Shown piece after piece: positions 5,177-8,534 of a stretch of 64,000 nt of DNA. The notes below the pieces were generated by a model. That model was not told the DNA's origin, searched no databases, and saw only the letters and a list, made by a program, of their open reading frames with translations. The position numbers and the translations under genes were made by a program. Within the stretch, counting starts at the first letter, position 1, and each line of letters starts with the position of its first letter. The DNA is from Paenibacillus sp. MMS20-IR301 (GTDB lineage: Bacteria > Bacillota > Bacilli > Paenibacillales > Paenibacillaceae). The stretch spans positions 6,291,501 to 6,355,500 of the forward strand of contig NZ_CP135275.1 of the NCBI RefSeq assembly GCF_032302195.1, read 5' to 3'.

Positions 5177-6571
5177 TTGGGGCCGACAGCCATGATTCGA
5201 GATCAGCTAGCGAACTATTTATCCCTACACGGGATGTCTATCAATCAATTTGCTATAAGATCCGGCATTAATTCCGGAACATTAAGCCGGATTATTAATG
5301 GCCATCAGCCGATTGCCATGAGCCATCTGGAATTAATTACTGCGGGAATGGGGGTGAGCGAGGATTATTTTTACAGCCTGTATGTAGATGAATGCTTCTT
5401 TCACTCGGCACCAACCTGGCGGCGGCTGCGCCCGTTCATTATCCGTTGTGCCGAGCTTGGGCGTATGGATTGTATCGAGCGTTTGGTACATAACCTGCTC
5501 GATAATCTCACCTATGTTCCTCTTCTGTTTGAAGTAGCCGAAGGGCTGTTCAGGCAGGGACACTTCCAGGCAGCTGCAGTGCTCTATGAGAATGTGAGCG
5601 CCAGCGAGAAATATCAGTATTCCGAAAGGCTGGCTACCTGCCAGTACCGCCTGTTCCGGATTGCGCTCGGGAATGACCAGAATACGAATCTGCGCGCGGC
5701 AACCTTGTTTGAGAGCTATATCCCGCGTCTGGATGAGGCGGAGCAATTGGATGCTTTGAAGGATCTGGCTAATGTATATAACTCACTTCACAGATGGAAT
5801 AAAGTTGATGAGCTCGCCAGCGAGTTGCACCGGATTGCCTCTATTCAATACGAACTTCAATACTCGTTGCACCAGAACCGGAAAGTGTACAAGCAGTCAT
5901 CAAGGCCGATTTATGGATATATCTTATATTCTTATCTCTTAAGGTCTTTAGTCTGCGAAGAGCAGGGGGATTATGCTGAGGCTCTAGAGCTTGTCAGTAA
6001 ATATGCTGATGGCAGCTGGATTCGGGAACAAACGGATGAATCCAGACAGACAATTGCCCAGTTTCAAGAGTGGGCAATTGCGAATAATTACCTATACCGG
6101 ATTCTGAATGGTTGTCATGATGTCTTAGCAGAATATGTGGAATATATTTCGGTTAGAGAAAGTGAGATCTTTACCGGAGTATTCAAAATTATTCAGGCTG
6201 CAAACGAATATGCCTGGGATATAGATGATATTCTGGAGCAATTCTCGGACTACCTGCCATTTCGGACATATTCTACGATTCTTGGCGACTACAATACGCA
6301 AGTAACAGCAGATCATTACGCACAGTTTCTTATAGAATTTGCTACCTATCTTCTAAATCATAAACGGAACGAAGGCATACAGGCTATATTGCAAAGCCTG
6401 GAATACTCTATCAAAATCAACAGTGAAGGAAAAGTTATTAAGTGTATAGATTTGTTTGAACAGCATCGTGACAAAGCGAATAATGAACAAAAGCAACAAT
6501 ACAAAAATTCTATTAGTGAGGGGCGAAGTCATTATGAAAAGAAAAGGGATATTATTTCTAGTTATGTGTAG
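5177..6571 (+). CDS. RRNPP-type HTH-TPR peptide receptor (AimR/AloR-like)
   Basis: 464 residues. Residues about 6-65 form an XRE-like helix-turn-helix (SINQFAIRSGINSGTLSRII). The rest is all-helical with repeated helix pairs that look like TPR units (AAVLYENVSASEKYQYSERL, LDALKDLANVYNSLHRW). This is the plan of RRNPP quorum-sensing receptors such as PlcR, AimR and the AloR proteins described in Paenibacillus polymyxa; identification is by architecture from memory. The TTG start has AAAGGTGGT at 6 bp, and it aligns exactly with the start of the paralogue at 7212. The last 38 bp overlap a small secreted-peptide gene, the arrangement of Rap-Phr and AimR-AimP pairs. It probably acts as a transcription factor in the cytoplasm that binds the re-imported peptide. 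Confidence 0.85.
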   Translation: MGPTAMIRDQLANYLSLHGMSINQFAIRSGINSGTLSRIINGHQPIAMSHLELITAGMGVSEDYFYSLYVDECFFHSAPTWRRLRPFIIRCAELGRMDCIERLVHNLLDNLTYVPLLFEVAEGLFRQGHFQAAAVLYENVSASEKYQYSERLATCQYRLFRIALGNDQNTNLRAATLFESYIPRLDEAEQLDALKDLANVYNSLHRWNKVDELASELHRIASIQYELQYSLHQNRKVYKQSSRPIYGYILYSYLLRSLVCEEQGDYAEALELVSKYADGSWIREQTDESRQTIAQFQEWAIANNYLYRILNGCHDVLAEYVEYISVRESEIFTGVFKIIQAANEYAWDIDDILEQFSDYLPFRTYSTILGDYNTQVTADHYAQFLIEFATYLLNHKRNEGIQAILQSLEYSIKINSEGKVIKCIDLFEQHRDKANNEQKQQYKNSISEGRSHYEKKRDIISSYV

Positions 6572-6686
6572 TATGGTTGCTCTGCTCATTGCTCCTGTAG
6601 CGTACGGGGATCCGGTTATTGGGACAACTGTCACTACCTCCACACCAACAGTTCAACCCTTAGGGCACGGCAGTGGCGGATATTAA
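6534..6686 (+). CDS. putative secreted signalling pro-peptide of the AloR-like receptor
   Basis: 50 residues. A basic N-terminus (MKRKG) and a hydrophobic core (ILFLVMCSMVALLIAPVA) are followed by AYG-DP, a plausible signal peptidase I site. A Thr/Ser-rich spacer precedes the C-terminus VQPLGHGSGGY. Small size, a Sec signal and a short distinctive tail are the hallmarks of Phr/PapR/AimP-type pro-pheromones. It starts inside the end of the receptor gene, with GAGGGG about ten bases before ATG 6534. The mature peptide is presumably the last 5-11 residues; the exact ends are not visible. A second copy of the tail follows in frame after the stop. No other function suggests itself. Confidence 0.75.
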   Translation: MKRKGILFLVMCSMVALLIAPVAYGDPVIGTTVTTSTPTVQPLGHGSGGY

Positions 6687-6728
6687 ATAATAGTTCAACC
6701 AATGGGACATGGTGCTGGCGGATTATAA
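6651..6728 (+). repeat. tandem duplicate of the pheromone C-terminus behind a stop codon
   Basis: Two 36-bp units (6651-6686 and 6693-6728), each ending in TAA, are separated by ATAATA and are in the same frame. They encode VQPLGHGSGGY and VQPMGHGAGGL. Codon by codon, five are identical, four differ only at a silent third position (Pro, Gly, His, Gly) and three give Leu/Met, Ser/Ala and Tyr/Leu. The second unit lies outside the annotated pro-peptide unless the first TAA is read through. Confidence 0.85.
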
Positions 6729-6782
6729 GCCTATGGGGACAATTATTGTAGAACCTGTATGATTTCAACAATATTAAGATTC

Positions 6783-6815
6783 CGGCGTTCCTGCTAACTC
6801 AGGAGCGTCTTTTTT
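6783..6815 (+). terminator. Rho-independent terminator after the receptor-peptide pair
   Basis: The stem GCGTTCCTG / CAGGAGCGT (with a G-T pair) has a six-base loop and is followed by six T. It closes the first receptor-peptide unit, so the Spo0E-like gene has its own promoter. Confidence 0.8.
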
Positions 6816-6935
6816 ATGAACAATTTCCGTAGTTATGCGCATTTATTGTCCTGTTTCAGCAGGTGATGCACCCAGGCTAATATTTTATAATTTTACATAA
6901 ATATCTATAATATTGCATGAGGAGGCGGAATTTAC

Positions 6936-7115
6936 ATGTATAATCCGGCAAGTGTCAGAATTCGTATTGAAAGGGCAAGAAGCAGGCTCCACCAGCTGCA
7001 GACCCGGCATGGGGGATTTGGACATCCGGAGGTGCTGCGGCAGTCTGTTGTGCTGGACGAACTGCTCAATACTTATGATAATGTTTACCGGATTAAGAAA
7101 AGGCCGCCTGCGTAA
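6936..7115 (+). CDS. Spo0E-like aspartyl-phosphate phosphatase (small)
   Basis: 59 residues, beginning MYNPASVRIRIERARSR and ending YRIKKRPPA. Two amphipathic helices flank a loop, and the second helix contains Q-S-V-V-L-D-E-L-L, which fits the S-x-x-x-D signature of the Spo0E family (Ser37, Asp41). Spo0E-type proteins dephosphorylate Spo0A~P and delay sporulation. AGGAGG lies ten bases before ATG. Two TATAAT-like boxes (6886 and 6906) stand in the AT-rich leader. It sits 96 bp upstream of the second AloR-like receptor on the same strand and may be co-transcribed. The placement suggests that the peptide system acts on the sporulation phosphorelay, which is inference. Confidence 0.8.
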   Translation: MYNPASVRIRIERARSRLHQLQTRHGGFGHPEVLRQSVVLDELLNTYDNVYRIKKRPPA

Positions 7116-7211: not shown

Positions 7212-8534
7212 GTGAAGCATACAATCAAAATCCGGGACGAAATTGCAGCTTATCTCTCGGAGCATGATCTGTCCAATAATCAGTTCGCCATCATCTGCGG
7301 GATTCATTCCGGTACGCTCAGCCGGGTTATGAAGGGCCAGCAGGCGCTGGCGATGAACCATCTTATCCGGATTACACGGGCCATGGGGCTTGCAGAGGAT
7401 TATTTTTACGGTAAATATGTAGATGAAATTATGGTTGATTCCGCTCCTACGTGGCGGCGTTTGCGGCCTTTTCTGCTGCAATGTGCTTCACTCTCGCGCC
7501 TGGACTGTATTGAAGCCATCGTACAGAACCTGCTGGATAATCTTTTGTATGTGCCGCTGCTTTTTGAGGTAGCCGAGGAATTATATCAGCAGGGACACTT
7601 ACAGGCTGCGGCCTTAATCTATGAGAATGTGGGGGCCAGTGAGAAATATCAGCATTCCGAACGGCTGGCGCTCTGTCAATATCGTTTGTTCTTAATGGCT
7701 CTCGGCGACGATCCGCACAATAATCTAATTGCGGCCGTCTTGTTTGAGAATTATGTAAGTAAGCTGGATGAGCTGAATCAGCTGGATGCCCTGAAGCAGC
7801 TGGCGCATACGTACTCTTCTCTTCATCAATGGCAGAAGGTAAGCGAACTCGCCGATGAGCTGCTCCGGCTGGCTTCGCTGCAGTATCAGCTGCTTAAAGG
7901 CGGCAGCCGCACAGCGGATCATGGGCGGGTCGCCCAAAGACCGGTGTACGCATATATTTTGTATGCCCAGCTTCTCCGCGCCAATGTGCTTGAGGAATGC
8001 GGTGACCATAAAGCTGCTCTGGAACTGATTCCTGTATATATGGACGCAGGCTGGATACGGGAAGATGATGAAGAGGCCAGAAGGATTATTGCGCAATATC
8101 AGGTTTGGGGGACAGCAAATATCTATTTAAACCGGCTGATGGACGGACAGATTGAGGTGCTTGACGAGTATGTTGAATACATCTCGGTCCGGGAAAGTGA
8201 GATTTTCACAGCCTTATCCAAAATCGTCCAGTCCGCTAACCGCTACAATTGGAATGTGGATTCTATTCTGCGGAGATTCGCGGCTTACATTCCCTACCGG
8301 CAATATTCCAGTATTTTCGGTGTAAGCAACAAACTGATAATGAACGATAATTATACCCGGTTCTGCAAAGAACTGGCTGCTTATTACTTGTCACGCAGGC
8401 GTTACAATAATGATGATGTCAGCATGCGGGGTGTAGACCTGTCCGTCAAACTCGACAATACCCAGAATGTGATCCGGGGGACCTTGTCCGTGGATTTCGA
8501 AATTCTTCTTTCCGATTCCACCTGGCTTAATTAA
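7212..8534 (+). CDS. second RRNPP-type HTH-TPR receptor (paralogue, no cognate peptide seen)
   Basis: 440 residues, clearly homologous to the receptor at 5177 from the first residue onward: IRDEIAAYLSEHD against IRDQLANYLSLHG, then APTWRRLRPF, LLFEVAEELYQQGH and EYVEYISVRESEIF in both. The helix-turn-helix lies at about residues 5-60 and TPR-like helices follow. GTG is the start; an ATG is absent nearby and the paralogue aligns here. The C-terminal 50 residues differ from the first receptor. No signal-peptide ORF overlaps or follows its 3' end; the next 40 bp lead into a dispersed repeat. It may be an orphan receptor that responds to the neighbour's peptide, or it may control spo0E. Confidence 0.82.
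   Translation: MKHTIKIRDEIAAYLSEHDLSNNQFAIICGIHSGTLSRVMKGQQALAMNHLIRITRAMGLAEDYFYGKYVDEIMVDSAPTWRRLRPFLLQCASLSRLDCIEAIVQNLLDNLLYVPLLFEVAEELYQQGHLQAAALIYENVGASEKYQHSERLALCQYRLFLMALGDDPHNNLIAAVLFENYVSKLDELNQLDALKQLAHTYSSLHQWQKVSELADELLRLASLQYQLLKGGSRTADHGRVAQRPVYAYILYAQLLRANVLEECGDHKAALELIPVYMDAGWIREDDEEARRIIAQYQVWGTANIYLNRLMDGQIEVLDEYVEYISVRESEIFTALSKIVQSANRYNWNVDSILRRFAAYIPYRQYSSIFGVSNKLIMNDNYTRFCKELAAYYLSRRRYNNDDVSMRGVDLSVKLDNTQNVIRGTLSVDFEILLSDSTWLN

Follow-up and report, generated by a model that had tools for sequence, protein, structure and literature searches.

A spo0E-linked AloR-AloP locus in Paenibacillus and the probable exchange of its sensing half and pheromone gene as one cassette

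It is an open question how a signal and its receptor can switch partners and remain functional. A receptor-peptide gene pair on which this question bears is located in a 64,000-nucleotide stretch of the Paenibacillus sp. MMS20-IR301 genome (contig NZ_CP135275.1), here termed the window. The initial annotation of the window interpreted this pair as a quorum-sensing system of the RRNPP type, composed of a 464-aa receptor and an overlapping 50-codon gene. Both sets of coordinates were verified (Table 1), with the 38-bp overlap between the receptor 3' end and the peptide gene spanning 6534-6571, and the RRNPP-type reading is supported by the association of an HTH and helical-repeat receptor with an overlapping propeptide gene and an HGxG tail, which is kept in 19/19 orthologous loci. 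The pair is an AloR-AloP pair and, as such, an ordinary member of a published Paenibacillus family. Both the pair and the layout of its locus are therefore already known; absent from the initial annotation were the spo0E-like gene, the second receptor gene aloR2, the pattern in which a part of the locus appears to behave as a cassette, and a second pheromone tail behind aloP.

Table 1. Features of the alo-spo0E locus (positions in the window).
Feature	Position	Strand	Basis
aloR, receptor with HTH and TPR-like helical repeats, 464 aa	5177..6571	+	ORF, Pfam HTH_3, AlphaFold2 model, structural matches, orthologues
Constant aloR part, encoding the HTH and the first helices (residues 1 to about 195)	5177..5761	+	Follows LysE (r = 0.95); L082/L089 DNA identity
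Putative exchangeable cassette, made up of aloP and the C-terminal, presumably peptide-sensing half of aloR	5762..6860 (both ends approximate)	+	Identity steps, incongruent trees, coupling of AloP and C-half
aloP, 50-aa propeptide with tail VQPLGHGSGGY	6534..6686	+	ORF (50 codons and stop), HG-tailed peptide in 19/19 loci, three relatives
Second pheromone tail (copy 2), IIVQPMGHGAGGL followed by a stop, signal-less, in frame after the aloP stop, probably a relic	6687..6728	+	Alignment score, base comparison
Intrinsic terminator closing aloR-aloP	6784..6815	+	-15.9 kcal/mol, z -3.9
Conserved spo0E promoter region, candidate place of AloR action	6863..6925	+	Conservation, promoter scan
spo0E-like gene, 59 aa, probable target	6936..7115	+	PF09388, 41.5 bits against a cut-off of 23; orthologous place in 19/19 loci
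aloR2, second AloR-like receptor, 440 aa, without aloP	7212..8534	+	ORF; orthologue in 19/19 loci

An AloR-AloP pair upstream of spo0E

The aloR gene starts at a TTG codon, with an in-frame ATG at 5192, and the N-terminus of its product matches the Pfam HTH_3 model (26.1 bits against a cut-off of 23), the TPR_2 score being below the cut-off of that model. The AlphaFold2 model is helical and confident (mean pLDDT 89.1, pTM 0.84), which bears out the HTH and helical-repeat receptor proposed by the annotation and corresponds to the RRNPP receptor layout, in which a TPR-like helical domain comes after an N-terminal HTH. Structural matches of the model include RRNPP receptors mixed with unrelated TPR proteins, with no Foldseek match at E <= 1e-3. 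By sequence, no relative of AloR was found in the PDB, where matches at E <= 1 were unrelated or limited to the HTH, and the NCBIfam and PHROGs searches yielded HTH-level or weak matches only. Membership in the AimR-AimP family was rejected on the basis of the NCBIfam AimR model, to which AloR has no match at E <= 0.1 and AloR2 a weak one (17.4 bits against a cut-off of 70), and no sequence-level relation to AloR was found for AimR-AimP (arbitrium), PlcR-PapR or NprR-NprX.

The Sec signal and Gly/His tail attributed to the small gene are both recognizable in AloP, which combines a basic N-terminus and a hydrophobic stretch (the signal being judged by eye) with the tail given in Table 1. Three 50-aa relatives present 72, 70 and 70% identity to it, ending, respectively, in GHGSGGY, GHGSGGY and GHGDGGF. 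Tails of the same kind were also located beside homologous receptors, where the receptor 3' end is accompanied in 19/19 loci by a peptide of 45-50 aa whose N-terminal part is hydrophobic and whose C-terminus contains HG, and this recurrence argues that the AloP-like ORF is there by more than chance. The tails of these loci (GHGPGG, GHGTGA, SHGIGG, SHGAGD, GHGGGGA, GHGHGGY and others) have an HGxG-like signature in common. Homologous receptors devoid of a peptide ORF, which the annotation regarded as a counter-indication to its reading, were not found among the orthologues (19/19 with peptide), and the description holds only for the neighboring orphan receptor AloR2 (20/20 loci without); no aloP-like ORF follows aloR2 in any of these 20 loci, the 26-aa ORF ending in HNG seen in L011 not being hydrophobic.

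The gene order aloR-aloP-spo0E, followed by a second receptor without aloP, is found in the window and in 19/19 orthologous loci. In the latter, Spo0E (19/19) and aloR2 (19/19) are accompanied by LysE upstream (18/19) and MoaA (17/19, one of them a piece at the end of its stretch), and the aloR orthologues are 60-76% identical. This set of 19 loci (7 + 12) leaves out L016, in whose flanks no LysE, aloR2 or moaA was found, L018 and L019, and the other or broken alo loci L020-L022; L001-L009 belong to the genome of the window, and L023-L061 are partly the same loci with shorter flanks. L018 and L019 have two additional AloR-like genes behind the receptor pair at the LysE-linked place; spo0E was not detected in either. 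Among five more distant alo-spo0E loci, spo0E is present in 4/5 and aloR2 in 0/5. The genome of the window itself contains nine AloR-like matches, one of them weak (26%), and HG-tailed peptides other than that of the window are found in it at L003, L004 and L007. Two complete tandem aloP-like ORFs with slightly different tails lie behind one receptor in L007 (2740-3170), L022 (5340-5689), L032 (2855-3180) and L039.

Among the known systems mentioned by the annotation, AloR-AloP of Paenibacillus polymyxa proved to be the matching family, and the layout of the locus is that of its Alo13/Alo14 locus (PMC7425212). An AloP has been defined there as a short ORF of 32-50 aa, directly downstream of the receptor gene and with an N-terminal hydrophobic helix (PMC7425212); the pair studied here fits this definition by virtue of its directly downstream 50-aa ORF, hydrophobic N-terminal stretch and 38-bp overlap, and both the xHGxG tail signature and the genus are in agreement with it. 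AloR is also listed as one receptor subfamily in the RRNPP_detector paper, in which the spo0E context is noted (PMC10075063). The features common to the window and to Alo13-spo0E-Alo14 comprise the HTH/TPR receptor, the short propeptide overlapping its 3' end, the xHGxG tail, the Spo0E-like gene directly downstream and a neighboring second receptor that has no working peptide, aloR2 having no aloP and aloR14 a degenerate one (PMC7425212). The two loci differ in the tail (GHGSGGY here, SHGRGG in Alo13) (PMC7425212). It is from layout only that orthology with Alo13 may be proposed, and Alo13 was not recovered when 100 genomes of the genus were searched for the SHGRGG tail (of 15 matched places, 8 were translated and gave nothing aloP-like).

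In P. polymyxa, AloR13 activates spo0E and the secreted SHGRGG peptide shuts it off (PMC7425212). By analogy, peptide-free AloR would activate the spo0E-aloR2 promoter, and Spo0E would keep Spo0A unphosphorylated. AloP would leave the cell by Sec and be trimmed; judging from AloP13, the mature peptide would correspond to about GHGSGG or GHGSGGY and not to the complete 11-mer. This peptide would then be re-imported by an oligopeptide permease, for which 12 SBP_bac_5 proteins are candidates, and would bind the C-terminal helical-repeat half of AloR; spo0E would be turned off as a result, and Spo0A phosphorylation and sporulation should proceed.

The promoter scan places a promoter-like site (TTTATA-16-TATAAT, 6884-6911) before spo0E, and the block TTTTACATAAANATCTATAATNTTGCATNAGGAGG at 6891-6925 recurs within 5 mismatches in 20 distinct sequences of related loci, the window included. 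In the genome of the window this block has one site within 3 mismatches and no second copy, and hence no wider regulon is predicted. Conserved inverted arms, ATGCA and TTGCAT, lie about 40 bp apart and flank the spo0E promoter (6863-6925); that they are the AloR operator is a guess. The SGTLSR stretch, which we take to be part of the recognition helix, is present in both receptors of the window, suggesting that AloR2 may bind a site similar to that of AloR. At its C-terminus aloR2 is the shorter receptor (440 versus 464 aa), and it has a variable stretch of its own between species at about 7785-8010.

Identity along the locus and in the two halves of the receptor

The flanking genes and aloR2 agree among the 19 loci, whereas aloR disagrees. 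When AloR is split at residue 195 and the window is compared with 18 of the loci (19 rows, L015 having been dropped for want of LysE), residues 1-195 follow LysE (r = 0.95), as does AloR2 (r = 0.92), whereas residues 196-464 correlate with it at r = 0.27. AloP, in turn, correlates with the C-terminal half at r = 0.87 and with the N-terminal half at r = 0.29, and partial Mantel tests given LysE yield 0.86 (p 0.0005) for the former association and 0.13 (p 0.10) for the latter. At the DNA level, the identity of L082 and L089 is 93-100% between the aloR start and about 5700, drops to 44-63% at 5824-6827 and is back at 95-99% from 6966. A step near codon 194, which falls in helix 187-203 of the AloR model, is also seen in L089/L085, L012/L086, L082/L085 and L088/L011. 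We accordingly place the left border of the putative cassette at about 5750-5770. The right one falls within the interval from the terminator (about 6815) to the spo0E promoter (about 6890) and varies between pairs, with the terminator marking it in some and the spo0E promoter in others.

By sequence comparison, then, the N-terminal, presumably DNA-binding half of AloR and the spo0E promoter are constant, and the C-terminal, presumably sensing half and aloP vary together as one cassette, which is a pattern of the pherotype type. Coupling between AloP and the C-terminal half would likewise be generated if the pair had been inherited vertically, with its sensing half and peptide co-evolving fast by point mutation under diversifying selection and without recombination. 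We regard this explanation as unlikely, in spite of the control locus described below, at which the C-terminal half is also the faster one: the DNA identity steps fall at the same codon in several pairs, and close pairs separate into two groups of C-half identity. Specifically, in the 44 pairs with LysE identity of at least 88%, the N-terminal half is at least 88% identical in 44/44, but the C-terminal half is 46-65% identical in 29 and 70-99% identical in 15.

The trees and the proteins with mosaic halves also speak against purely vertical descent. In an analysis of 32 rows (the window, the 19 loci and 12 proteins chosen as informative), the trees of the N- and C-terminal halves strongly disagree. 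AU tests, on sets defined with the trees already in view, reject a single type D clade for the N-half (p 1e-57) and, in the C-half tree, the monophyly of the groups formed by the N-half (p 5e-6, 1e-65 and 2e-52); for type B, a single clade of N-halves is rejected weakly (p 0.037). Four mosaic proteins have matching halves from different groups: P0009 (N-half 98% to L013, C-half 64% to the window), P0045 (99% to L010, 75% to L012), P0056 (99% to L092, 79% to L017) and P0052 (97% to L017, 80% to L092). The type D cassette is found in the window, in L082, in three proteins (P0005-P0007) and, more distantly, in P0009, and L082 carries it in an L089-like background. The window is a distant member of the set, with LysE identities of 74-81% to the other loci, and its type D cassette may be old. 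For type B (L088-L090), nine further proteins (P0054, P0058, P0064, P0066, P0068 and P0073-P0076) have C-terminal halves 69-78% identical to it on N-terminal halves that are just 72-77% like those of any orthologue; judged from these N-terminal halves, the donors would be receptors encoded at other alo loci.

As control we used another alo locus, present in 12 of the genomes compared. A gap of at least 25 points between N-half and C-half identity is seen in 2/66 pairs at the control locus against 41/66 at the spo0E-linked locus, and both control pairs involve the more distant genome of the window, without which the counts become 0/55 and 31/55. The mean gap is 11.3 points at the control locus and 25.0 at the spo0E-linked one. 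Since the C-terminal half evolves faster at the control locus too, part of the cassette signal must be ascribed to fast evolution; judged on these two loci, the exchange itself would belong to the spo0E-linked locus. Taken together, the sharp identity steps, the conflict between trees and the contrast with the control lead us to read the pattern as pherotype-cassette exchange, partly between paralogous alo loci. We consider it likely that the AloR-AloP pair times sporulation through the adjacent spo0E, and that the C-terminal half of AloR and aloP have undergone several joint replacements in the lineage, in part probably from paralogous loci. The expected effect of such an exchange would be a change of signal, and thus of pherotype, with the target retained.

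Cassette exchange, indicated here by comparison, is not described for the Alo13 locus in the accessible portions of that work (PMC7425212), and we found no report of it for Alo in the open-access literature, to which the search was confined. A close parallel is offered by ComR-ComS of Streptococcus suis, in which two pherotypes have the same DNA-binding domains and vary in the C-terminal half, and in which pherotypes have been transferred experimentally (PMC4072589). Identical DNA-binding halves, C-terminal variation, joint variation of receptor and signal and a conserved target promoter are common to both systems, but ComR-ComS controls competence and comprises two types (PMC4072589), whereas the locus studied here is linked to sporulation and presents, by our grouping, at least eight C-half groups in 20 receptors, with a paralogous family as the probable cassette donor. 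With Rap-Phr, the pair has in common a helical-repeat receptor, a co-varying signal and signal duplication (PMC5199041). Rap diversification, however, works by signal duplication, which is common, and by transfer of whole pairs; receptor recombination, indicated here, was searched for among Rap homologues, and none is reported in the accessible sections of that study (PMC5199041).

The receptors compared here can be viewed as natural chimeras, in which the same DNA-binding half and target promoter are combined with different sensing halves and peptides. Such chimeras would allow specificity tests and mapping of the peptide pocket, and could be used to ask whether signalling groups divide populations in sporulation timing.

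A second pheromone tail behind aloP

The second tail of Table 1 (copy 2) has, in the accessible text on Alo13, no counterpart at that locus (PMC7425212). When aloP is aligned to the 144 bases that follow it, the score is 36; the best of 500 shuffles reaches 33. Copy 2 differs from the tail of aloP (copy 1) in 10/33 bases, 6/10 of them at third positions, and the two agree in 8/11 residues, a level of residue conservation that random changes reproduce in 0.7% of trials. Among 34 receptor loci with an HG-tailed peptide, a signal-less second tail is found in the window only (1/34), L032 having a second, complete peptide. A further degenerate repeat after copy 2 (AYGD / IIVEPV, 6729-6762) was considered and rejected, as it failed the shuffle test (p 0.36).

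Copy 2 is probably the relic of a duplicated or replaced pheromone. That it is still in use, through read-through of the TAA stop or from an ATG start of its own (MGHGAGGL), and provides a second signal is very unlikely. The core VQPxGHGxGG is intact, base differences concentrate at third positions and an in-frame ATG is present, but copy 2 lacks a signal peptide, the other 33/34 loci contain no such copy, and selection on copy 1 alone together with a young copy 2 would yield the same pattern.

As to what the relic stems from, we give only slightly less than an even chance to a tandem pheromone duplication as in Rap-Phr, rather than a replaced cassette. Complete tandem copies of aloP exist in the paralogous locus L007 of the same genome, and also in L022, L032 and L039, and signal duplications have been described for Rap-Phr and NprX (PMC5199041). 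Against this origin, no trace of the upstream portion of a second aloP could be detected (p 0.36), and the orthologous tails resemble copy 2 more closely than copy 1 in 15/19 comparisons (tied in 3, less closely in 1), the loci not being independent of each other. A broader reading, which we put forward tentatively and at somewhat below even chances, is that the spo0E-linked alo locus constitutes a chromosomal pherotype switch, with recombination at one place of the receptor gene that swaps the sensing half along with the pheromone gene, paralogous donors and a preserved sporulation target, and that copy 2 is the fossil end of the previous pheromone. If this were true, strains would change signalling group while their sporulation target remained unchanged.

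Beyond the tails themselves, the terminator-bearing stretch resembles those of cassette types A, C, G and H and, more weakly, D (p 0.01) and F (p 0.03); for the DNA that separates copy 2 from the terminator, type C is the sole match among the 19 loci (p 0.03).
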